A stretch of 46,184 nucleotides of DNA from Hymenobacteraceae bacterium (GTDB lineage Bacteria > Bacteroidota > Bacteroidia > Cytophagales > Hymenobacteraceae). Both the position numbers and the translations under genes were made by a program. Location of the stretch: contig JAKONR010000068.1 of the NCBI GenBank assembly GCA_022701825.1, forward strand, positions 1 through 46,184. The letters are read 5' to 3'. Under the pieces are notes generated by a model. That model worked only from the letters and a program-made list of their open reading frames with translations. It ran no database searches and had not been told where the DNA came from. Below, piece by piece: positions 6,632 to 18,609 of the stretch. How positions within the stretch are numbered: position 1 is the stretch's first letter; every line of letters begins with the position of its first letter.

Positions 6632-6721
6632 CGTCATGCTGAGCGTAGCGAAGCATCTCTGCCGCTTCATCCAAACCGCTCAACGAAGCGATAGAGATGC
6701 TTCGCCGCGCTCAGCATGACG
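6632..6721. repeat. Palindromic repeat, family B (GTCATGCTGAGC type), copy 1
   Basis: cgtcatgctgagcgtagcgaagcatctct ... agagatgcttcgccgcgctcagcatgacg. Confidence 0.9.
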
Positions 6722-6763: not shown

Positions 6764-9226
6764 TCACTCCTTATCAAACCGGGCCAGGACCAGCGGGAAA
6801 ATCACCAGCTCGCCAAACATCGCCCCCACGATGGAAACCGCCGTGAGCAGCCCAAACAGCTGCACCGTTTTGAGCGAGCCGAGCATCATAAACGCGTAGC
6901 CACCCAGCAGAATGGCCCCCGTGAGCACAATGGCCGGCCCCACGTGCCGGATGGTGGCCAGCCGCGCCGCTGCCGGCCCCAGCGCCCGCCGCTGCCGCTG
7001 GTAGTGGTGCATAAAATGCACCGTGTCATCGACGCTCAAACTCAGCACGATGGCCGCGATGCTAGCCGTGGCCGTGTCGAGCGCAATGCCCGCCCAGCCC
7101 ATAAAGCCCAGCACCACCAGCACCGGAAACAGGTTGGGCAGCACCGTGAGCAAGGCCAGCCGCCAACTGCGCACCAGCGCCCACACCAGCCCCAGCACCA
7201 CCACCAAAGACCAGCCCAGGCTGCTGGTTTGCGAGCGCGTGACATACTGCGTAATCGCCGCGTATAGGGGCTGGTAGCCCGCCGGCTCCACCGTGGCCAC
7301 CGGCCCCAGCACGCGGCCGGCCACCCGCCGCACGGCCGCCATTTGGGCGCTCAATTGCCGGGCCGAGAGCATGGGGCCGGCCAGCGTGAGGCGGCCCACT
7401 CGGCCATCGGGGCTGGCAAACTGCGCCAGCAGCGCCGGGTACTCGGCGGCCAGGCGCTCGTGCGTGAGGCGCAGCGCGCCGCGGCTGCCCAGTGCCGCCT
7501 GCGTGCGGCGGCCCGGCCCCAGCCGCGCCTCCAGCCCCGCCCGGTAGAGCTGCGCAAAGCCAAAAACCCGCCCCACGCCCGGCCGCCGCCGCAGCGAGTC
7601 GGCCAGCGCCTCGGTGGCCTGCACTACCTCGGGGCTGTGCAGCGTGAGGCCGGTGCGCGGGCGCACCAGCAGCTCTAGCGGCATGTAGGCGCCCCAGGCG
7701 CGTTCGAGGGCTTGGTGGCTGCGCACCACGGGGCTGTTACTCGGAAAATAGCCCAGCGTGTAGGTATCGGCCCGCAGGCGCGGCAGGCCCGCCGCCAGCC
7801 CCAGCACCAGCGCGCCCACCAGCAGCGTGAGCGCCCGGCGGTGCCCCAAAACCCAGCCGTAGAGCCGCGCCAGTGCCGCGCTGGTGCGGGCGGTGATGGA
7901 GGAGTTAGAAGAATTAAAAATGAGAAAATTAAAAACTAAAAATGGGCGGGTGGCTCGTGGCTGGTCAGAAAAACGGCCGCTGCCAGCGGCTTCCCCAACC
8001 TCCTCATTTTTAATTTTTAATTCATAATTTTTAATTCTCCTAATTCCCGCCAGGGGCAGCAGCCACACGCCCAGCCCAAACGTGAGCACCAGGCACCACG
8101 CAATGCCCACGCCCGAAAACAGCCCGAACGTGCGCAAAATCGGCATCGGCGAGCTGAGCAGCGCCAGAAACCCCGCCACGTTGGTGAGCATGGTGGCCGC
8201 GCACGGAAACAGCATCTCGCTGAGCGCCGCGAGGGCCAGGTTTTTGGGCGAGGAAGTGGCCAGCGGCTCGCCGGGCGGCGCGGCCAACTGCTGCATCTCG
8301 TTGATAACGTGGAGCGCATCCATGAGCCCGAGCAGGATGATGACCACCGGCAGCAGCACCGTGAGCAGATTGAGGCGGTAGCCCAGCGCGCCGTACAGGC
8401 CCAGCGTGAGGTAGGTGGCCGTGCCCACGATGCCCAGCGCGTAGAGCACCAGCACGCCGCGCCGGTACAGCGCCCAGAGCAGCAAAAACATCAGCCCGAA
8501 GCCGATGCCCAGGAAGAAGCCGAAGTCGCGCTGCGACAGCTCGTTGAGGCCCGCGTATACCACGCCCACGCCGCCCAGCCAGGCTTGTTTATCCAAGGCA
8601 AAATGGCGGCCCACCGTGGCCCGCACCTGCGCCAGCACGGCCCCGCGCTGGTTGTCAAAATCGGGCAGGTTGCGCAGCGTAATCAGCAGGCGGGCGGTGC
8701 GGTAGTCGGGCGTGAATAGCTGGTCGCGCAGGGTGGGCTGCCGGGCCAGCGCGGCGCGTAGGGTGGCGCTGTCGAGGCCCGCGCCGAGCAGGGGCGCGGT
8801 GCCACCGAGGCCGCCTGCCGGGGTGCGTAGCACGGCCGGGCTCAGCACGGCTTGTACGCTGGGCAGGGCCGCGAGGGCCGTGCTGAGCGCCGCCAGCCGG
8901 CGCTGGTTGGCGGGTGCGAGCAGCGTGCGGGCCGAGTCCCGCACGGCCACTATTACCACCTCGTCGTTGCCAAAAAGCCGCTGAAACGCCCGGTAGCTTC
9001 GCAGCGCTGGGTCGCCTTCCAGAAACCAGATGCGCAGGCTATTATCAACCCGCACCGCCGCCCGCACGCCGGGCCACAGCGCCAGCAGCGCGCTCAGCAA
9101 TGCGGCCAGAAACCAGTAGCGCACCCGGTGCAACCCCATGATAATAGTAGCCGCCGTGGGCATACGCAAAAGGCCGCCGCTACGAAAGCGTAGTAGCCGC
9201 TGCCGCCACGAAGTAACGGTGGCCAC
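6764..9226 (-). CDS. RND/MMPL-family exporter (820 aa)
   Basis: Two RND-like halves with clustered TM segments (LTVLLPVVIILLGLMDALHVINEM; ASIAAIVLSLSVDDTVHFMHHYQRQ); contains an AT-rich in-frame repeat insert. Confidence 0.88.
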   Translation of the reverse strand: MATVTSWRQRLLRFRSGGLLRMPTAATIIMGLHRVRYWFLAALLSALLALWPGVRAAVRVDNSLRIWFLEGDPALRSYRAFQRLFGNDEVVIVAVRDSARTLLAPANQRRLAALSTALAALPSVQAVLSPAVLRTPAGGLGGTAPLLGAGLDSATLRAALARQPTLRDQLFTPDYRTARLLITLRNLPDFDNQRGAVLAQVRATVGRHFALDKQAWLGGVGVVYAGLNELSQRDFGFFLGIGFGLMFLLLWALYRRGVLVLYALGIVGTATYLTLGLYGALGYRLNLLTVLLPVVIILLGLMDALHVINEMQQLAAPPGEPLATSSPKNLALAALSEMLFPCAATMLTNVAGFLALLSSPMPILRTFGLFSGVGIAWCLVLTFGLGVWLLPLAGIRRIKNYELKIKNEEVGEAAGSGRFSDQPRATRPFLVFNFLIFNSSNSSITARTSAALARLYGWVLGHRRALTLLVGALVLGLAAGLPRLRADTYTLGYFPSNSPVVRSHQALERAWGAYMPLELLVRPRTGLTLHSPEVVQATEALADSLRRRPGVGRVFGFAQLYRAGLEARLGPGRRTQAALGSRGALRLTHERLAAEYPALLAQFASPDGRVGRLTLAGPMLSARQLSAQMAAVRRVAGRVLGPVATVEPAGYQPLYAAITQYVTRSQTSSLGWSLVVVLGLVWALVRSWRLALLTVLPNLFPVLVVLGFMGWAGIALDTATASIAAIVLSLSVDDTVHFMHHYQRQRRALGPAAARLATIRHVGPAIVLTGAILLGGYAFMMLGSLKTVQLFGLLTAVSIVGAMFGELVIFPLVLARFDKE
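7901..8046. repeat. AT-rich palindromic element inserted in frame in the exporter CDS
   Basis: ggagttagaagaattaaaaatgagaaaattaaaaac ... ctcatttttaatttttaattcataatttttaattctcctaattc; encodes IRRIKNYELKIKNEEVGEAAGSGRFSDQPRATRPFLVFNFLIFNSSNSS. Confidence 0.85.
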
Positions 9227-9388
9227 CGGCTCCGGACACTACCGGCCGCCGTTCCTTTAAAGTCAGATTATTGGTTGCCTAAAGCGCTTAGAATAAACAG
9301 GATGTCCTGCCGGGCGGGCAAAAGCTAACATCCGTATTCAGCAGAAATTAACCGGGCGGCCTGCCGTATTCGGCCGTTACTTCGGGCC

Positions 9389-10303
9389 ATGAAACTTCGC
9401 AACCTGGGGGCGTATCTGCAAGAACGGTTTGCGCCCGTCAACATGGGGCTGTTTGTGGTGCTGTTTTTTACGGTGCGGGGCGTGGCGAGCGTGGCCTGCG
9501 CCGAGGGCCGCTGCCCGCCGCACCCCGACGGGCCGGCGCTGGCGGCGCTCGGGGCGCTGGCTACGGTATCGTTTTTCTTTCGCCTGCGGGTGTTTGATGA
9601 AGAAAAAGACTATGCGCTCGACGCCGTGCACCACCCGCAGCGCGTGCTGCAAACCGGCCGCGTGACCTTGCCGCAGCTGCGGGCGCTGGCCTGGGCCGGC
9701 GCGGCGCTGGAGCTGGGCTGGTCGGCCGTGCGGGGAATGGATACCGTGGCGCTGTGGGCGGTAGCATTGGGCTACAGCCTGCTCATGCGCGCCGAGTTTG
9801 GCGTGGGGCAGTGGCTCAGGGCGCGGTTGGTGCTGTACGCGCTGAGCCACATGCTTATTATGCCGCTGGTTGTCTGGTGGGTATTCTCAGCTTATACCCG
9901 AGGTATACCGTTCGATTTCAAGTACCTGCCGCTGCTATGGCTGCTGAGCTTGCTGGGCGGCTTCAGCTTCGAGCTGGCGCGCAAGCTGCACGCCCCGGCC
10001 GCCGAGCGGGCGGGTGTGGACTCGTATTCGCAGGCGTTGGGCTACGGGCGGGCGCTGGGCCTCACGGTGGCCGTGCTGCTGGCGGGCGGCGCGGTGCAGG
10101 CGCTGCTGCTGCGCACCCTGCACGCCCGGCCGGTGGCCTACGCGGTGCTGGCCGGGCTGCTGGCGGCGGGCCTGGCGCTGTACGCCGTGGCCGCCCGCCG
10201 GCCCCACGAAGGCCGCCTGCGGCAGGCCGAAAGAGTGGTTTCTTTAGTCATGCTCACTTCTTACCTGGCCGTGCTGGTCGAAGTCTATGGCCTTGGCAAA
10301 TAA
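9389..10303 (+). CDS. UbiA-like prenyltransferase family membrane protein
   Basis: 304 aa polytopic protein with Asp-rich FRLRVFDEEKDYALDAVHHPQRVLQTGRVT motif and second motif ARKLHAPAAERAGVDSYSQALG. Confidence 0.75.
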   Translation: MKLRNLGAYLQERFAPVNMGLFVVLFFTVRGVASVACAEGRCPPHPDGPALAALGALATVSFFFRLRVFDEEKDYALDAVHHPQRVLQTGRVTLPQLRALAWAGAALELGWSAVRGMDTVALWAVALGYSLLMRAEFGVGQWLRARLVLYALSHMLIMPLVVWWVFSAYTRGIPFDFKYLPLLWLLSLLGGFSFELARKLHAPAAERAGVDSYSQALGYGRALGLTVAVLLAGGAVQALLLRTLHARPVAYAVLAGLLAAGLALYAVAARRPHEGRLRQAERVVSLVMLTSYLAVLVEVYGLGK

Positions 10304-12950
10304 TCAGTTGTTTGTGCCCGCTGCGCAGGCGGCGGCGCTGCCCGCCCGCGCCGCTGCGCGCCTCGGCGGCAAGGCCGCCGGCCTGCTGCGCCTGCGGGCG
10401 CTGGGCCTGCCGGTGCCCGAGTTTGCGGTGCTGCCGGTGGCCGTGTTTGAGCCGCTGCTGGCGGGCTTGCCCGTCACGCAGGAAGGCCTGGCCGAGCGGC
10501 GGGCGCGCCTGGCTGGCTGCGAGGTGCCGGCCGAAACGCGGGCGGCCCTAAAAGCCGTGCTGGCCGACTGGGATTTTCCGGCGCGGCCGGTGGCCGTGCG
10601 CTCGTCGGTGGCCGACGAGGACGGCGACGCCAACGCCTTCCCCGGCATGATGGACAGCGTACTGAGCGTCAGCGACTGGCCGGCGCTGTGGGTGGCCGTG
10701 GCGCGGGTGGCCGCCAGCGCCTACTCGGAGCGCGCGCTCACGTACCGGCGCCAGCGCGGGCTGCCGCTGGCCGCCCGCCCGGCCGTGGTGGTGCAGCGCC
10801 AGGTGGCGGCGCGGGCGGCGGGCGTGCTGTTCACCACCTTCCCCGAATACCCGCTCGAACTAGCCATTCACGCCGTGGCCGGGCTGGGCGAGGGCCTGGT
10901 GGGCGGGCAGCTGGTGCCGGAAGAGTATTATTTGCGGAAGACCGATGGACAGCTGGTGGCTTCTGAGGAGTTAAGAGTTGAGAGTGAAAAGTTAAGAGTT
11001 GAAAATGGGGAGTTGAATCAAGAAGTCATAACTCTTCACTCTCAACTCTTAACTCTTAACTCAAAACTGCTCGCCCCTACCGCGCTGGCCGACTTATACC
11101 GCTACGCCCAGCGCCTCGAAACGGCCCTAGGCGGCCCGCAGGACGTGGAATTTGCCCAGGACGAAACCGGCCAGATGTGGCTCGTGCAAACCCGCCCGCT
11201 GACCCAGCCCGTGCCCGAGGTACTGGTGTTCGACAACGCCAATATTCAGGAAAGCTACTGCGGCGTGACTACGCCGCTCACCTTCAGCTTCGCGCAGCGC
11301 GCCTACGCCACCGTGTACCGCCAAACCATGCGCACGCTGGGCCTGCCCGCCGCCACCGTGGCCGCGCACGAGGGCGTGATTACCAACCTGCTCGCCCTGC
11401 GCCAGGGGCGCATCTACTACAACCTCAATAACTGGTACCGGGGCTTGCAGCTGCTGCCGAATTTCAGCCAAAGTAAGGCCGATATGGAGCGCATGATGGG
11501 CGTGCTGGAGCCCGTGGACTTCGTGCGCGACCAGCACAAAACCCTGCCCCAAAAGCTGGCTTTGCTGCCCCGCCTGGCCCTGAACCTGGGCCGCCTGCTG
11601 GGCGAGTTTGCGCGGCTGCCGGGCCGGGTGCGCGGGTTTCAGGCGCGGTTTGAGGCCGAGTACCAGCGCTTTTACCAGCTGCCGCTGGCCGACCTCGGTG
11701 CCGACGGGCTGCTGCGCGAAATCGGGCACCTCGACCAGGCGCTGCTCACGCGCTGGACTACGCCCATCGTCAACGATTTTCGGGTGATGATGGCCCACGG
11801 CGCGGCCACCCGCCGCTTGGCCGCCTTGGGCATCGCCGACCCCGAGGAGTTTCTGAGCCGCTATTTGGCCGGTAGTCCGGCCGGGGCTAAAAACGGCCCT
11901 TCGGATGCTGCGGAGGCCGCGCCCCTAGCCAGCCTGCTGCCCGCCTTGGCTTTGCGCGATTTGGGCCAGGTGGCTCGCCAGAACTTTCCTGAACTGCTGC
12001 CACTGCTGGCCGCGCCTGGCCCCGACCTGCCGGCCCAGGTGGCGCGGCTGGCCCCGGCGTTTCAGCAGCAAGTGCGGCAATACGTGGCCCGCTACGGCGA
12101 CCGCACCATGGGCGAGCTCAAGCTCGAAACCGAAACCATGCGCACCAGCGAGGCGCTGTTTTACCAGTATTTATTGCCCTACCTGGAGGCGCCCGCGCCG
12201 CGCCCGGCGGCGGCCTCGCTGCCCGCGCAGGCCACCGCCGAGCTGGCCGGGCGCCTGCGCGGGCGCGGCTGGTGGGCGGCCCGGCAGGTGCGCGCCAGCC
12301 TGGCGGCGCTGCGCCAGGCCGTGGCCCGCCGCGAGGCGCTGCGCCTCGAGCGCACCCGGCTTTTTGGCATGTACCGGGCGGCCTACCGGCAGCTGGGGCA
12401 GCGGCTGGCGGCAGCCGGCACGCTGGCCGCGCCGCTCGATGTATTCTGGCTTACCGAAGCCGAAATAGCGGCTGCCGTGCGCACGGGCGGCCCCGCGTGG
12501 GCGGCGCGGGTGGCCGCCCGCCAGGCCGAATTTGCGGCCTACCGGGCCGCGCCCGCGCCGCCCGGCCGGCAGGTCGAGCCGGGGCGGCCGGTGGCCGCCG
12601 CCGAGGCCGCCCCGCCCGCCGATGGCTGCCTGCGCGGCACCGGCTGCTACCCCGGCCAGGTGGCGGGCGAGGTCGTGGTCATCACCGACCCGGCGCAGGC
12701 CGCGGTGGGGGCCGTGCGCGGGCGCATCGTGGCGGCGCTACGCACCGACCCCGGCTGGGCGGCGCTGTTTCCGGGGTGCCGGGCGGTGCTCATCGAGCGG
12801 GGCTCGGCACTGTCGCATTCCGTTATCTTGCTGCGCGAATTGGGCATTCCCACCATCATCAATGTGCCGGGCCTCACGCAGCACCTGCGCAGCGGCCAGC
12901 ACGTGCGCCTCGATGGCCGCGCTGGTACCGTGGAGGTGACAGCGGGATAA
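10287..12950 (+). CDS. PPDK/PEP-synthase-like phosphotransferase (ATP-binding domain plus swivelling-His domain)
   Basis: GGKAAGLLRLRALGLPVPEFAVLP, RPVAVRSSVADEDGDANAFPGMMDSVLSV and GSALSHSVILLRELGIPTIINVPG; start overlaps the UbiA stop by 17 nt. Confidence 0.85.
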   Translation: MALANNQLFVPAAQAAALPARAAARLGGKAAGLLRLRALGLPVPEFAVLPVAVFEPLLAGLPVTQEGLAERRARLAGCEVPAETRAALKAVLADWDFPARPVAVRSSVADEDGDANAFPGMMDSVLSVSDWPALWVAVARVAASAYSERALTYRRQRGLPLAARPAVVVQRQVAARAAGVLFTTFPEYPLELAIHAVAGLGEGLVGGQLVPEEYYLRKTDGQLVASEELRVESEKLRVENGELNQEVITLHSQLLTLNSKLLAPTALADLYRYAQRLETALGGPQDVEFAQDETGQMWLVQTRPLTQPVPEVLVFDNANIQESYCGVTTPLTFSFAQRAYATVYRQTMRTLGLPAATVAAHEGVITNLLALRQGRIYYNLNNWYRGLQLLPNFSQSKADMERMMGVLEPVDFVRDQHKTLPQKLALLPRLALNLGRLLGEFARLPGRVRGFQARFEAEYQRFYQLPLADLGADGLLREIGHLDQALLTRWTTPIVNDFRVMMAHGAATRRLAALGIADPEEFLSRYLAGSPAGAKNGPSDAAEAAPLASLLPALALRDLGQVARQNFPELLPLLAAPGPDLPAQVARLAPAFQQQVRQYVARYGDRTMGELKLETETMRTSEALFYQYLLPYLEAPAPRPAAASLPAQATAELAGRLRGRGWWAARQVRASLAALRQAVARREALRLERTRLFGMYRAAYRQLGQRLAAAGTLAAPLDVFWLTEAEIAAAVRTGGPAWAARVAARQAEFAAYRAAPAPPGRQVEPGRPVAAAEAAPPADGCLRGTGCYPGQVAGEVVVITDPAQAAVGAVRGRIVAALRTDPGWAALFPGCRAVLIERGSALSHSVILLRELGIPTIINVPGLTQHLRSGQHVRLDGRAGTVEVTAG
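10965..11070. repeat. Palindromic GAGTTAAGAGTTGAGAGTG element inserted in frame in the PPDK-like CDS
   Basis: gaggagttaagagttgagagtgaaaagttaagagttgaaaatgg ... actcttcactctcaactcttaactcttaactc; encodes EELRVESEKLRVENGELNQEVITLHSQLLTLNSKLL. Confidence 0.88.
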
Positions 12951-13140
12951 TCTTTACGGCAACATATGCGTATATGCTCACTCTATCGTTTTCTGAGCCA
13001 GTGCGCCGGCCAGCGGGTAGCGGAGTGCACGCCGCGGCACTTGGCCGGGGCCGGGCAGGCGGCGGCGCTAGGCGCCTCTTGCGCGCCCAAAAGCCGCCCA
13101 TCGGCCGGCTTTACCTAAGAGCGGGTTTGGAGATTTAAAG

Positions 13141-13176
13141 AATCGCCCTGCTTCGGCAAGCTCAGCAGGACGATTT
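13141..13176. repeat. Short palindrome
   Basis: aatcgccctgct-tcggcaagct-cagcaggacgatt, one stem mismatch. Confidence 0.6.
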
Positions 13177-13330
13177 AAAAGTGTTTTTAGCAAAATCCAA
13201 ACGAGCTCTACCTTATACTCAACTACGAATAGCTAATTATACTACCTGGGCTGGCCTGGCTTTTCTGCTGGCGAGCGGCCCTGGCTACTGCGCTTCTCTT
13301 CGCCCTTCTCGCCTTTGAAAACCCGACTCT

Positions 13331-14401
13331 ATGCCTTCTTTTCTCGACCGCTTGCCTTACCAGGGCGAGCTGCCGGCCAGCTTCGACACGGTGGGTCGGC
13401 AGCTGTATGCCGGCCTGGGCTACGCGCCCGATGATGAGCACGCCGCCCGGCTCTGCGAGCAGCTGGCGGCTACCCACGACATTATTTTCTACACCGACCA
13501 CTGGAATCTGCGCCTCGCGGGCCTGTTTCCGAAGGAGGGCGGCGAGGTCGCGTACTTCGGCTTTTGGGAAACGGCCGGGCTGCTGCCGCCTAACCAGCTG
13601 GCCTTCGACCAGCTGCGGCAGGACGCCGCCGCGCGCGGGTTTCAGCAGGTGCGGGGGCCGCTGCATTTTAGCACCTACTTCCGCTACCGGCTGCGGCTGG
13701 GGCCGGTGCCGTCGTGGAAGCAGTTTAGCCGCGAGCCCGTAAACCCGCCCTACTACCCCAGCCTACTCGAGCAGCTGGGCTTTCGGCCGGTGCTGGGCTT
13801 CGAGAGCCACTGCCTGCGCGCCAGCAGCGTGCCGCAGGTGTACGAGCAGCGGCGGGCCGTGCAGGAGCAGTTGCTGCAATCGCCCTTCGAGTTTATTCCG
13901 CTCGGGCCCGGCACCTGGGCGGCGCTCGAAGACGAGATTTTTGAGCTGGTGCACCAGGTGTTCGGCCAAAACCCCGCCTACCGGGCCGTGGGCAAAGCGC
14001 AGTTTCGCCTGCTCTACAACGAGCAGTACGCCGAGGGGCTGTGCCCGCACACGTCGGTGCTGTTTCGGCACCGCGCAAGTGGGCAGCTGGCGGCCCTCAG
14101 CCTGTGCCAGCCCAACTACCACCCGCTGGGCCGCACCGTGAGCGCGCACCCGGTTTTCACCCGCCACTATCCCTTGCTGACGCACCGCACGCTGCTGGCC
14201 AAAACCGTGGGCGTGCACCCCGATTTTCGGGGCCAGGGCCTGCAAGCCCTGCTGGCCGCCTACGCCATGCAGGAGTTTCAGGAATACTACGACGACGTGA
14301 TTTTCTGTCTTATGCGGGACGATAATCTGTCGCTCCGCTTCCTGAAAGACCTGCCTACCGAGGTGGCGTACTACGCGCTTTTTGAACGCGATGTAGCGTA
14401 A
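13331..14401 (+). CDS. GNAT-like acyltransferase (356 aa)
   Basis: C-terminal TVGVHPDFRGQGLQALLAAYAMQEFQEYYDDVIFCLMRDDNLSLRFLKDL resembles GNAT motif A. Confidence 0.7.
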   Translation: MPSFLDRLPYQGELPASFDTVGRQLYAGLGYAPDDEHAARLCEQLAATHDIIFYTDHWNLRLAGLFPKEGGEVAYFGFWETAGLLPPNQLAFDQLRQDAAARGFQQVRGPLHFSTYFRYRLRLGPVPSWKQFSREPVNPPYYPSLLEQLGFRPVLGFESHCLRASSVPQVYEQRRAVQEQLLQSPFEFIPLGPGTWAALEDEIFELVHQVFGQNPAYRAVGKAQFRLLYNEQYAEGLCPHTSVLFRHRASGQLAALSLCQPNYHPLGRTVSAHPVFTRHYPLLTHRTLLAKTVGVHPDFRGQGLQALLAAYAMQEFQEYYDDVIFCLMRDDNLSLRFLKDLPTEVAYYALFERDVA

Positions 14402-14492
14402 GTTTTAGCTTGCGAGCGAGCGTAGCAAGCAATGGCGCAAGCGGACGTCTGCAATCGTAGCTGCTCGCTCGCAAGCTAAAGCTTACGCTACA
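14393..14492. repeat. Palindromic repeat, family A copy 2, between convergent genes
   Basis: tgtagcgtaagttttagcttgcgagcgag ... ctcgctcgcaagctaaagcttacgctaca. Confidence 0.92.
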
Positions 14493-15619
14493 CCTGAGGC
14501 AGCCGCGAAAAAGCTTTCTACCACCCGCGGCAAAAAGGCATACGGGCTCAGCGCGTGCGGCATCAAATACAGGCCCAGGCGGTGCAGGCCAAACTCCAGG
14601 GTGGCCAGCCGGGTGCCTTCGGCAAAGGCCGCCGCGTCGGCAAAGCGGCCGGTGCGGGCGTGCAGCTGCTGGCGGTAGTAGTCGAAGTAGCCGGCGCGCA
14701 GGTGGTAGCGGTCGGGGCCGAGCACGAAGGCCAGCAGCTCCACCACATCGTACTGCGGCAGGTGGTAGGTGGCCAGTTCCCAGTCGTAGGCCACGAGCTG
14801 CGGCTGGCCGTCGGGGCCGGGCCGGAAGCAGGTGTTGCGCGGGTTTAGGTCGTTGTGAATAAGAGCTTTGGGCATGGCTTTCAGCGTGGCCCAGCTACCC
14901 GGAATAGCCCGAATAGCCTGCGCCAAAAACCGCTGCCGCGCCGCCGGGTACAAGTCCGGAAAGTGCCGCCCGGCGTGGTCGAGCAGCGCCTCCCAGAGCG
15001 GGGCCAGCTGCGGCCAGGTAGCGGGCGCGGCCTCGGGCGGCGCGCTGCCTTCGGGCACCAGGTGGCAGGCGTGCCAGGCGGCCAGCTGGCGCAGGGCGGC
15101 GCGCAGGTGGGCGTCGGTCCAGAGGGCGGGCGCGAGCACCGAGTTGAGCAGTTCGCGGCCGCTGAGGTCTTCGAGCAGCACCAGGTACGCATCGGTGGCC
15201 GCGGCGGCGTGGGTGCCCCACACGCGGGGCAGCAGCGCGGCCTCGGCGCAGGCGGGCGCGGCGTACACGGCCAGCTCGCGGCGGTGCGTGTCGCCAAAGC
15301 CAGTGAGGTACTCGAAGGCCGGGTACACCTCGGCCACGGCCCCGCCGCAGGCCTGGGCCAGCCCGGTCAGCATCTGGCAGATGGCGCGGGCGTGAGCCTT
15401 GGCTTTCAATACCATACGCTGAATATGCCAGTCGTGGCCGGCCTCGCGCAGCTCCACCTCCAGCCCAAAAAGGCCGATGGGCTGCGCCGTGCGCCCCGCC
15501 GTGAGGGTGGATAAAATGCTGGTCGAGCTATCGAGCGACCATGGCCGCACGGCGCGCACTTCGGCCGCCTCGGCGGGCGCGTGCTGGCGCAGCAGGGTTT
15601 GCAGAAAATCGGGGTTCAT
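14483..15619 (-). CDS. Aminoglycoside/choline-kinase-fold (APH family) phosphotransferase
   Basis: Brenner-like ALIHNDLNPRNTCF and VAYDWELATYHLPQYDVVELL; ATG 15619 preferred because the ORF-track extension to 15769 lies in a family B repeat. Confidence 0.82.
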   Translation of the reverse strand: MNPDFLQTLLRQHAPAEAAEVRAVRPWSLDSSTSILSTLTAGRTAQPIGLFGLEVELREAGHDWHIQRMVLKAKAHARAICQMLTGLAQACGGAVAEVYPAFEYLTGFGDTHRRELAVYAAPACAEAALLPRVWGTHAAAATDAYLVLLEDLSGRELLNSVLAPALWTDAHLRAALRQLAAWHACHLVPEGSAPPEAAPATWPQLAPLWEALLDHAGRHFPDLYPAARQRFLAQAIRAIPGSWATLKAMPKALIHNDLNPRNTCFRPGPDGQPQLVAYDWELATYHLPQYDVVELLAFVLGPDRYHLRAGYFDYYRQQLHARTGRFADAAAFAEGTRLATLEFGLHRLGLYLMPHALSPYAFLPRVVESFFAAASGVA

Positions 15620-15668
15620 GGCAGGAAGGAGAGGAGTGAGTAGGAGAAGGATGCGTTGACCACGGCCG

Positions 15669-15765
15669 TCATGCTGAGCGCAGCGCAGCAGCTCGCTCGC
15701 ATCGTTGCTTGCGTTAAATATTACGGCACTACGCGAGCTGCTGCGTTGCGCGCTGCATGATGGCC
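15669..15765. repeat. Palindromic repeat, family B copy 2 (diverged)
   Basis: gtcatgctgagcgcagcgcagcagctcgc ... gcgagctgctgcgttgcgcgctgcatgatgg. Confidence 0.8.
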
Positions 15766-16884
15766 GCACCGAAAGCCGTCTGAGGTAGTTTCTTCGCAGC
15801 CAGCGTATTCCAGCGCCCGCACCCCGCCAAAGTAGAAGCAGCCATCGGCCGCGCCCAGCTCTTCCGACGCGGCGGCCAGCAGCGGCACGGCCGCCGTGCG
15901 GCGCGGGGCCTGGGCTTGCAGCAGGTTCCAGAATACCGCCCGCAGCGGCTGCGGGCGCTGGCTTAGCGCCCGGCTCACGCGCCCGAATTCGGCGGGGCTC
16001 ACGTACTCGAAAATGTTGGAGAGGCTGGCTTTGGTCACGCTTTGGCCGGCTTCGGAAAGCAGAAACTCGGTGGCCTCGCCCGTGGCCAGCCGCAGCCGGC
16101 CCAGGCGGGTGCGCAGCCGGGTGTGGTGGGCCGCCTGGTAGCAGGGCGGCAAAATGGCCTCGGGCAGGTTTTCGGGCCCAAAAAACAGGAAGCGAAAAAA
16201 GAAGTTATCCCGCGCCAGCTGCTGCCCCAACTGCCGCCGCAGCCGCCCAAAAAACGTGGCGCCGCCCGCCTCGGCCGCGTAGCTATACAGGCGCGGGTCG
16301 CGCCCTTTGCTCAGATTGGCCGCGTCGAAGTAGTCGATAAAGCGGGCCCGAAAACCGGGCTGGTTCAGCTCCGCTTCAAAATAAGCCGCTTGCGCCGCTA
16401 CCGTCTCAAACGTGAGCAGGTGGCGCAGCTGGGCCTGGTACCCAGCCGGTAGCGTGGGCAAAAAGCCGGTAACGTAGCCTTCGAGCTGCCCGGCCAGCAG
16501 CAGGCCACTGGGGTGCCGGGCCAGGTAAGTGGCCCAGCAGTCGTAGGCCGCGGCGGGCAGTGTGGCGCGGAGCGCGGCGGTGGCGGCGGCCACGGCGGCC
16601 GGGCCATCCAGCCCTAGCAGCCCGCGCAGCACGGCCGGCGGGTGGTGGCCAATGACGTGCATTTTGAGGCCCAGCAGCTGGTTTTGCACCGGGTTCAGGT
16701 CGATGGCCGTGACCTGGCGCGGGCCGGCGAGCAGCGCGTTCAGCGCATTGCAGCCCGCCGAGGTGATGATGAGCGCGTGGTCGCCGGGCCCGAGGCCGAG
16801 CGCCCGGTACAGCGTGCGGTGGTCTTCCCACACCAGCCCGTAGCGCAGGCGGTCGAGCGGAATTTGGGCAAATTCGGAGTGCAT
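15721..16884 (-). CDS. DUF3419 / BtaA-like S-adenosylmethionine:diacylglycerol 3-amino-3-carboxypropyltransferase family protein
   Basis: MHSEFAQIPLDRLRYGLVWEDHRTLYRALGLGPGDHALIITSAGCNALNALLAGPRQVTAIDLNPVQNQLLGLKM: SAM-binding region typical of DUF3419. Confidence 0.82.
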   Translation of the reverse strand: MHSEFAQIPLDRLRYGLVWEDHRTLYRALGLGPGDHALIITSAGCNALNALLAGPRQVTAIDLNPVQNQLLGLKMHVIGHHPPAVLRGLLGLDGPAAVAAATAALRATLPAAAYDCWATYLARHPSGLLLAGQLEGYVTGFLPTLPAGYQAQLRHLLTFETVAAQAAYFEAELNQPGFRARFIDYFDAANLSKGRDPRLYSYAAEAGGATFFGRLRRQLGQQLARDNFFFRFLFFGPENLPEAILPPCYQAAHHTRLRTRLGRLRLATGEATEFLLSEAGQSVTKASLSNIFEYVSPAEFGRVSRALSQRPQPLRAVFWNLLQAQAPRRTAAVPLLAAASEELGAADGCFYFGGVRALEYAGCEETTSDGFRCGHHAARNAAARVVP

Positions 16885-16944
16885 GGCGGGAAGGAGGAAA
16901 AGGTTGTTTTATGGAAGGCTTTGAAGGTTGCTGATAACGATTGG

Positions 16945-17019
16945 CCTTGCGAGCGCAGCGCAGCAATCGCACCCAAACGGCGGCTGAACAGGTGCGATTG
17001 CTGCGCTGCGCTCGCAAGG
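16945..17019. repeat. Palindromic repeat (TTGCGAGCGCAGCGCAGCAATCGC type)
   Basis: 29-bp perfect arms ccttgcgagcgcagcgcagcaatcgcacc / ggtgcgattgctgcgctgcgctcgcaagg. Confidence 0.92.
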
Positions 17020-17043
17020 ACAGCCACACACACACGTACCTGC

Positions 17044-18609
17044 TTAGCAAATCAAATCGTAGCGGAGCTTGGAGAAATGCCGGCCATCAAGCGGCAATTG
17101 GTCGCGCTGCTGCACGCGGCCCAGCAGCCCCGGCCCAAAGGCCGCTTCGGTGGCCGCCCGCAGGCCCTCGGCGGTCGTCATCCCCACAAAAAACACGTCG
17201 AACGCCGCGCCATCGGCGCGGGGCAGGGCCGCTACCTGGGCTACGCCGGGCAGGTGGCGCAGGTGGTGCTCAAGCTGGTAGTGCCCCACGCCGCGCACCG
17301 GCTGCGCCGCCCCGCGCCGGCCCGTGAGCCAGAGCTGCCCCGCCGCGTCGAAGTAGCCGAAGTCGCCGGTGGCGAGCCAGGTTTCGGGGCCATTTGGGGC
17401 AGCTACGTGCGGGCCGCGCACCAGTATCTCGCCGGCCTGGTAAGAGGGCAATTCGTCTTCAAGCGCAGCAAAAAACGCCGGCCCGCGCGCGGCCTGCGGG
17501 CGACCTTCTGCCGCAACTAGCTCCGGCCGCGCCGCTGGCTGCCACACGGGCCGCGGCTGGCGCAGGCTGATTTTCAGCCCCGCGTGCGGCTGGCCTACGC
17601 AGTAGCCGAGGCGTGGGTCGGGCGCTGGCCCGGCCACCGTGCGCACGGCAATCGGCTCGGCCTCCGAAGCGCCATAAATAACGTGGCAAGTGGCCCGCGG
17701 AAAACACCGCTGCACCGCCGCCAGCAGGCTTTCCGGCACTGGCGAGCCACCGATACCCAGCGCCCGCACCGCCGGAAAAACCGCCGGGTGCAGCTGCAAA
17801 TGCGCTACCAGCCGGGCGAAATAAAACACGTTGCCGGTCAGCGTTTCGACCCGCTCGGCGGCCAGCTGCGCTGCGATGCGGGCGGGGTCGAGCTGCGCCA
17901 GGCGGCCCAGCGGCAAATCGGGCACGATGCTGAGCGCGCCCACCGCCAGGTTGTGCAGGATGACGTTGGGAAAGAGCGGAAAATCGCGCTGCCCCGCCCA
18001 CGGCGGAAACTGCCGCCGCAGCGCCTCGTGCTGCGCCTGCAATACGCGGTGGCTGCGCCGCACCGCCGCCGGCCGCCCCGACGCCGAGCCCGAGCTGTGC
18101 GAAATCAAGGCGGGCTGCTCCAGGCTCACGGGCCGAAGCGTGGGCGTCGCCAGCGCCGGTGGGCGGGTAGTTGGGGTCGCTTCATAGTCAGCGGCGGCGG
18201 CGGCGGCCACGCAGCGGCAGCCCAGCAGCCGGCCCAGCCAGCCCAGCCGGCGCCGGGTGCCGGGCGCCACCACCGCCAGCCGAATGCCTTCGGCTTTCAG
18301 CAAGCGATAAATAACGCTGGCCGACGCGCCGGCCGGGGGCAGCACCGGCACCGCGCCCAGCCCCAGCACGGCCAGCAGCGCCGCCACCAGCTCGGGGCTG
18401 CCGGGGTGGGCCAGCAGCACGGGCGCGCCCACGGGCACCGGGCCGCTAGATTCCAGGGCCTGCTGCCAAGCCTGCACCCGCGCCAGCAGCGCCGCCCCGC
18501 TCACGCTGGCCGGGGCCGCGCCGGGCCGGGCGGCGGGCCAGCGCAGCACCTCCCGCGCCGGCTGGCGGCGCAGCTCGGCAAACAGGCGCTCGGCAAAGTT
18601 GGGGTGCAT
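17044..18609 (-). CDS. AMP-dependent synthetase/ligase family protein
   Basis: LISHSSGSASGRPAAVRRSH (P-loop-like A3), CHVIYGASEAEPIAV (A5), WLATGDFGYFDAAGQLWLTGR (A7/A8). Confidence 0.85.
   Translation of the reverse strand: MHPNFAERLFAELRRQPAREVLRWPAARPGAAPASVSGAALLARVQAWQQALESSGPVPVGAPVLLAHPGSPELVAALLAVLGLGAVPVLPPAGASASVIYRLLKAEGIRLAVVAPGTRRRLGWLGRLLGCRCVAAAAAADYEATPTTRPPALATPTLRPVSLEQPALISHSSGSASGRPAAVRRSHRVLQAQHEALRRQFPPWAGQRDFPLFPNVILHNLAVGALSIVPDLPLGRLAQLDPARIAAQLAAERVETLTGNVFYFARLVAHLQLHPAVFPAVRALGIGGSPVPESLLAAVQRCFPRATCHVIYGASEAEPIAVRTVAGPAPDPRLGYCVGQPHAGLKISLRQPRPVWQPAARPELVAAEGRPQAARGPAFFAALEDELPSYQAGEILVRGPHVAAPNGPETWLATGDFGYFDAAGQLWLTGRRGAAQPVRGVGHYQLEHHLRHLPGVAQVAALPRADGAAFDVFFVGMTTAEGLRAATEAAFGPGLLGRVQQRDQLPLDGRHFSKLRYDLIC

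Follow-up and report, generated by a model that had tools for sequence, protein, structure and literature searches.

A seven-gene cluster of Hymenobacteraceae with a UbiA/PPDK-like core as a candidate pathway for an amphiphilic, lipid-type product

Seven adjacent genes in a 46,184-nucleotide stretch of DNA from a Hymenobacteraceae bacterium (the whole stretch is called the window here) appear to form a biosynthesis and export cassette, which represents variant A of a cross-phylum pathway built on a UbiA/PPDK-like core. Its most likely product is an amphiphilic, lipid-type molecule with an aminocarboxypropyl head group, a reading to which we assign a probability of roughly 55%. An earlier note on this DNA had proposed that the seven genes belong to one pathway, and this view is supported by their linkage across rearrangements and by the finding that the set recurs in other phyla, where modules are swapped and some genes are fused. 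No description of the seven-gene set was found in the open-access literature searched, and the lipocone paper contains none.

All seven genes were recovered as open reading frames of the families originally named, with Pfam, NCBIfam or structure matches. The MMPL/RND (HAE3-like) exporter (6764..9226, minus strand) carries MMPL domains in two stretches (Pfam, E 1e-26) and matches the NCBIfam HAE3 model at 1.4e-43, below the subfamily cut-off. A UbiA-fold membrane alkyl/prenyl transferase (9389..10303, plus strand), assigned from alignments, is followed by a PPDK-like ATP-grasp and swivelling-His phosphotransferase of rifampin-phosphotransferase layout (10287..12950, plus strand; Pfam PPDK_N 1.2e-44, PEP-utilizers 2.9e-16), and the overlap of 17 nt described between them is real (10287-10303). 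The tandem-GNAT acyltransferase (13331..14401, plus strand) has no match in Pfam and is assigned from alignment and from a predicted structure (pLDDT 85.7) that matches tandem-GNAT structures in a PDB fold search (best E 4e-12). Convergent with it lies an APH/ecdysteroid-kinase-like small-molecule or lipid-alcohol kinase (14483..15619, minus strand; Pfam APH 3.2e-13), with HNDLNPRN and DWE kinase motifs in its translation. This reading frame opens at 15769, but because homologues align only from about 50 residues in, translation probably starts at the ATG at 15619. The remaining two genes, also on the minus strand, encode a DUF3419/BtaA-like homologue of SAM-dependent 3-amino-3-carboxypropyl transferases (15721..16884; Pfam PF11899 1e-38, alignment and tree), which is the single DUF3419 gene of the window's genome, and a PRK09274/OleC-like AMP-forming acyl/aryl ligase (17044..18609; Pfam AMP-binding 2.1e-23, NCBIfam PRK09274 4.5e-55, below cut-off). 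The AMP-ligase, GNAT and APH families also work on soluble small molecules, which counts against a lipid reading. PADLOC anti-phage defence models matched none of the seven proteins (0 families), and by this comparison the cluster belongs to no known defence family.

Conservation of the neighbourhood across Hymenobacter and Cytophagales, on which the earlier note had staked its proposal, is strong. Twenty-two other Hymenobacteraceae genomes with a DUF3419 protein at least 51% identical were mapped at 20 kb: in 19 the complete set lies within that span, in two MMPL alone is missing, and one retains only APH and BtaA. The set is kept in this family despite several gene orders and inversions. MMPL is absent from two loci of Hymenobacter relatives (L025 and L030), where 29-30% paralogues alone remain. 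Several distinct orders and orientations likewise occur among 28 variant-A loci, in which the distances of all gene pairs correlate at 0.89-0.97, a range that says little more than linkage because it has no housekeeping baseline. Genes found in the gaps between members in relatives (LysR, GNAT and a possible transposase) are lineage-specific, so the core set stands at seven. The neighbouring DcuC and PAS/TonB genes were also rejected as members, since they flank the reduced locus L027 as well and are not retained elsewhere. The distribution is patchy, at 24 of 151 Hymenobacteraceae genomes and, for the variant-A-like UbiA, 10 of 396 genomes of the phylum.

Related clusters occur in many phyla beyond Hymenobacteraceae. 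A scan with the PPDK-like protein as query yielded 80 named, HMM-labelled loci, reduced to 53 non-redundant loci for counting. The PPDK-like gene is present in all 53 by construction, UbiA in 52, AMP-ligase in 48, GNAT in 46 and BtaA in 40; UbiA and the PPDK-like phosphotransferase are the core of the pathway. The other steps are exchanged as modules. BtaA (40 loci) and a CDP-alcohol phosphatidyltransferase (11 loci) never co-occur (p=1e-9), nor do APH (18 loci) and the phytol/dolichol-kinase-like PhyK (22 loci; p=3.7e-6). Fusions join an HMG-CoA-reductase-like protein (HMGR) to APH in 22 loci, and AMP-ligase to UbiA, AMP-ligase to CDP-alcohol phosphatidyltransferase and BtaA to APH in others. 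Variant A, the window's form, has one origin, being a single clade in the PPDK-like tree (100/100), and contains no reductase in the cluster; variant D additionally contains phosphatidylserine decarboxylase and a fatty-acyl reductase. Several clusters lack MMPL, so export is not obligatory. A clean copy on a Roseinatronobacter plasmid carries generic public annotation: UbiA family prenyltransferase, PEP/pyruvate-binding protein, DUF3419, two hypothetical proteins and AMP-binding protein. HMGR was rejected as an unlinked partner in Hymenobacter, since the homologue there (contig C465) has a conserved neighbourhood of its own, and none was found in cluster-bearing Pontibacter, Pedobacter and Fibrella genomes. 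A mevalonate role for the cluster HMGRs was tested through HMG-CoA synthase (PF08540, TIGR00748); Gramella, with HMGR present and no DXR found, also lacks a match to either model.

The core enzymes resemble known families but also differ from them. The UbiA protein has no Pfam match and meets NCBIfam prenyltransferase models below cut-off (PRK05951, 8e-26); its profile finds solved DGGGP synthase (6m31, 1.1e-8), its nearest solved relative, with chlorophyll synthase as the second-best solved match, and the profile match and the first Asp-rich motif place it in the UbiA superfamily. It shares the fold, the first Asp-motif region and RPxPxG with DGGGP synthase and other UbiA enzymes, but its first motif reads DExKDxxxD, invariant in our alignment, in place of NDxxDxxxD. 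The second Asp-rich motif is missing, its acidic residues replaced by ExxRKx6E..YS, and the use of a prenyl-diphosphate donor is therefore unsure. The best solved match of the PPDK-like protein is Listeria rifampin phosphotransferase (RPH; 5hv1/5fbs, 1e-123), and it shares with RPH and the prodigiosin ligases PigC/RedH the ATP-grasp and swivelling-phosphohistidine layout, the catalytic His lying within an invariant ERGSxLSH. In contrast to these enzymes, it falls below every NCBIfam cut-off (195.9 bits against 999 for the curated RPH model), does not align over the RPH substrate region (profile 302-496) and is linked to UbiA in nearly every locus (52/53). Judged by sequence, it is not a rifampin phosphotransferase.

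In the proposed pathway, the UbiA-fold enzyme would couple a chain, either alkyl or isoprenoid, to an alcohol acceptor that may be phosphorylated, by analogy with DGGGP synthase, and the APH kinase and RPH-like swivelling-His enzyme would phosphorylate alcohol intermediates. The BtaA homologue may supply a 3-amino-3-carboxypropyl head group from SAM, a tentative assignment by homology only, because the protein is far from canonical BtaA and its structure model has no significant match to any solved fold. The AMP-ligase could activate an acid, the tandem GNAT would pass on an acyl group, possibly onto the BtaA-added amine, and MMPL would carry the product out of the cell. That this product would be a lipid is suggested by the two alternative head steps, since BtaA and CDP-alcohol phosphatidyltransferase both come from families that place polar heads on lipid alcohols; the PhyK-like and DAGK genes present among the cluster variants likewise indicate lipid alcohols.

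Synthesis of a conventional betaine lipid (DGTS), with BtaB encoded elsewhere, would account for the single-copy DUF3419 gene but is very improbable. As the earlier note had observed, no BtaB lies in the cluster; a BtaB comparator found only weak, generic methyltransferase matches in the window's genome (83% complete; best 1.6e-4) and none in a second cluster-bearing genome (G063). Canonical systems, such as the DUF3419-methyltransferase pair of Rhizobium leguminosarum pSK03, share the SAM-enzyme family, but the cluster-linked BtaAs fall in a clade of their own, separate from the BtaA encoded in such an operon (36 rows on one side of the tree, 100/97; variant A on a long stem, 100/100), and the six further conserved genes are not needed by BtaAB. 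One BtaA (L154) falls outside the cluster-linked group, itself on a long branch. The suggestion that RPH-, APH- and GNAT-type enzymes inactivate or tailor antibiotics draws on the fold layouts of the PPDK-like and GNAT proteins and the Pfam APH match, yet it is hardly credible, because the PPDK-like protein falls far short of the RPH model and these three families travel with lipid-type partners, and UbiA, BtaA and AMP-ligase are conserved alongside them; a plasmid search with the window's UbiA and BtaA also gave no match. The ebo operon is likewise a widespread, uncharacterized bacterial cluster with a UbiA-superfamily member, but its partners include a sugar-phosphate cyclase, metallo-hydrolase, xylose-isomerase-like protein and phosphodiesterase (PMC5133447), and Pfam finds the eboA, B, D, E and F domains in none of the seven genes; the cluster is not an ebo operon.

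A diffusible secondary metabolite (a signal or antibiotic-like compound rather than a membrane lipid), made by prenylation of a small core and secreted by MMPL, is unlikely but retains some weight. The patchy distribution would suit it, and AMP-ligases, tandem GNATs and RPH/RedH-like enzymes are frequent in such clusters, but no carrier-protein, PKS/NRPS or aromatic-core gene was observed to recur, and the swapped modules (BtaA, CDP-alcohol phosphatidyltransferase, PhyK, DAGK, PSD) are lipid-metabolism families. Phytol salvage combines phytol kinase, phytyl-phosphate kinase and a UbiA transferase, and variant B also pairs a kinase and second phosphotransferase with UbiA. A comparable salvage route to a prenylated redox lipid, as in tocopherol formation, in which the kinase and then the PPDK-like enzyme convert a long-chain alcohol to its diphosphate for transfer by UbiA, would explain why PhyK takes the place of APH, offers HMGR or FAR reductases a possible role as alcohol sources, and fits the chlorophyll synthase match. 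We consider it improbable: acceptor-making genes and tocopherol or chlorophyll partners are absent, BtaA, GNAT and CDP-alcohol phosphatidyltransferase are left unexplained, the clusters differ from phytol salvage in their head-group, acyl and export genes, and we know of no PPDK-like enzyme that turns phosphates into diphosphates.

A lipid-type product of the UbiA/PPDK-like core would have consequences beyond this family. We suggest, tentatively and with more doubt than confidence, that the clusters make a bacterial polar-lipid class without a known member, with a UbiA-assembled core (isoprenoid or alkyl, ether- or ester-linked) and an interchangeable head, either aminocarboxypropyl (BtaA forms) or phosphodiester (CDP-alcohol phosphatidyltransferase forms). 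The class would span Bacteroidota, Planctomycetota, Verrucomicrobiota, Acidobacteriota, Cyanobacteriota and, with the HMGR-APH fusion, Gammaproteobacteria including Photorhabdus. Should the genes make one product, a single experiment would assign roles to no fewer than six protein families across many genomes, and it could uncover a membrane or exported lipid common to distant phyla. Thanks to the modular swaps and fusions, the pathway chemistry can be tested directly.

The repeats mentioned in the earlier note are present, but they are dispersed palindromes, two of which lie in-frame inside genes rather than between them: one in MMPL (7901-8047) and one in the PPDK-like gene (10966-11070). 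The final residues of the DUF3419/BtaA protein are also encoded within a palindromic repeat. A further inverted repeat, 97% complementary (14392..14492), is located where the GNAT and APH genes converge, and it may act as a bidirectional terminator.

All seven genes that the earlier note placed at 6764-18609 are confirmed by their ORFs and translations in this draft Hymenobacter genome (83% complete), and its family assignments have clear Pfam matches for five, those of UbiA and GNAT resting on other evidence. UbiA is identified by NCBIfam prenyltransferase models, with scores below cut-off, and by a profile match to a solved DGGGP synthase. The window GNAT has no Pfam match; its predicted structure (mean pLDDT 85.7) matches tandem GNATs. 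None of the seven proteins reaches a curated NCBIfam equivalog cut-off.

The set is accessory in Hymenobacteraceae, since DUF3419 is found in 24 of 151 family genomes, the window's own counted. Mapping of the window proteins onto 20 kb around DUF3419 in 22 other genomes, with close or divergent homologues, shows all seven genes kept by nearly all those with a close homologue, bearing out the neighbourhood conservation expected of the single lipid or small-molecule pathway proposed earlier. MMPL alone is missing at two loci (L025, L030) that keep the other six genes, and just 29-30% identical paralogues are left in those genomes; where MMPL runs off the edge of a fetched stretch it is still detectable (e.g. 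L028). A reduced cluster of APH and BtaA only lies inside the usual DcuC and PAS flanks at L027 (8296-10568), in a genome (G054) from which UbiA is absent altogether. Of the two genomes that remain, one has a divergent BtaA-PPDK-UbiA set (L046) and the other a lone DUF3419 (L047). The genes differ in order and orientation from locus to locus: most often, as in the window, there are two convergent groups plus a divergent MMPL, all seven genes run in the same direction at L031-L033 and L041-L042, and genes in the gaps between members are lineage-specific. Linkage that survives rearrangement is stronger evidence for joint function than plain synteny. At L032 (11445-12251), a transposase-like ORF interrupts APH in an otherwise complete, single-direction cluster.

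Beyond the family, a UbiA profile search of Bacteroidota yields nine additional loci, and the PPDK alignment as query against named genomes at least 80. HMM labelling of cluster genes together with Pfam assigns four forms, the PhyK label being our reading of an RKxVH motif with no Pfam match. Variant A, the window type, comprises UbiA, PPDK, GNAT, APH, BtaA, AMPL (the AMP-ligase) and, in most, MMPL, and occurs in Hymenobacter, Solirubrum, Pontibacter, Fibrella, Gramella, Nonlabens, Pedobacter (no APH seen in the cluster) and one Saprospiraceae MAG. Variant B combines HMGR (HMG-CoA-reductase-like), UbiA, PPDK, BtaA, PhyK (resembling phytol/dolichol kinases), GNAT and AMPL in Dyadobacter, Fluviicola, Microscilla, Planctomycetota, Verrucomicrobiota, Acidobacteriota, Gemmatimonadota and Oscillatoria, the last without HMGR and PhyK. 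Variant C, in Photorhabdus, Kosakonia, Marinobacter, Endozoicomonas, Zooshikella and Thiomargarita, lacks BtaA and has UbiA, an HMGR-APH fusion, PPDK, GNAT, AMPL, CDP-alcohol phosphatidyltransferase and often MMPL. Variant D (L065, L066) has a fatty-acyl reductase, DAGK or PhyK, UbiA, PPDK, GNAT, phosphatidylserine decarboxylase and BtaA. Plasmid location is possible, because a Roseinatronobacter plasmid (L153, NZ_CP121116.1) carries a cluster of the variant B type, with UbiA, PPDK, DUF3419, an AMP-binding protein and two hypothetical proteins, publicly annotated with generic names only. In a MAG labelled Klebsiella pneumoniae (L135), BtaA and PPDK cluster with a Deltaproteobacteria MAG in trees; the MAG was probably mislabelled or misbinned.

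Across 53 non-redundant loci, each 14 kb or longer, from the matches listed, BtaA (40 loci) and the CDP-alcohol phosphatidyltransferase (11) never share a locus (Fisher 1e-9), nor do APH (18) and PhyK (22; 3.7e-6), p values that overstate independence because the counts are phylogenetically clustered. Read stop to stop, HMGR-APH is fused in 22 loci, and AMPL-UbiA, AMPL-CDPOH and BtaA-APH fusions also occur. From the zero co-occurrence and the fusions, we therefore argue that the modules are alternative or consecutive steps of a single pathway. In the PPDK tree, variants A (100/100) and C (99/98) each form a single clade, with 6 label changes in total versus 28 in shuffles. The HMGR-APH fusions of Photorhabdus (L084, L086-L091, L116) and Kosakonia (L099, L103) measure about 860-880 aa.

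A lipid-type product is favoured because both head-step alternatives belong to lipid-alcohol-modifying families, UbiA has affinity to DGGGP synthase, and the replacements are lipid-kinase-like. On slightly better than even odds (about 0.55), the window form makes an exported amphiphile: the BtaA homologue would place a 3-amino-3-carboxypropyl head on it. The cluster-linked DUF3419s form one group (36 rows, 100/97), outside which falls BtaA of a Rhizobium BtaA-methyltransferase operon, a separation subject to long-branch caution. The ATP-grasp and His domains of the PPDK-like protein align with RPH-type structures from Listeria (E 1e-123), and its catalytic His lies within ERGSxLSHS; the RPH substrate region has no aligned counterpart. 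Comparison with known systems rejects the betaine-lipid operon, RPH and the ebo operon as identities of the seven-gene set, and no PADLOC defence family matched. No account of the gene set turned up in the part of the open-access literature searched, and its 'undescribed' status is provisional. DUF3419 seems to serve several pathways; elsewhere (L047, L155, L156) its contexts are dehydrogenase-like, helical and desaturase-like proteins, a CoF synthetase with an MBL-fold protein, and an iron-containing redox enzyme with speD.

Motif 1 of UbiA, DExKDxxxD, does not vary; in motif 2, ExxRKx6E stands in place of the Asp residues. Cluster HMGRs retain the catalytic E, K, (mostly) D and C-terminal H, with DAMGMN replaced by DA(A/S)GQN and an E or D at what we take to be the position of human S684; in the aligned Photorhabdus sequences the conserved Asp of DAxGxN is Ala. 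With these positions altered, HMG-CoA need not be the substrate. The window's genome has DXR, i.e. the MEP route, and also an HMGR homologue (L148, contig C465, 2098-3693) in a conserved Hymenobacter context with an SDR and an apparent phytanoyl-CoA-dioxygenase-like gene.

Dispersed palindromic repeats lie in-frame within PPDK (10966-11070; 42 matches across the genome) and MMPL (7901-8047), adding about 35-50 residues each. Intergenic REP-like inverted repeats (GTCATGCTGAGCGxAGCGxAGCA and relatives) occur at 6632-6721, 15663-15766 and 16942-17022, the second encoding the final residues of the DUF3419 protein.
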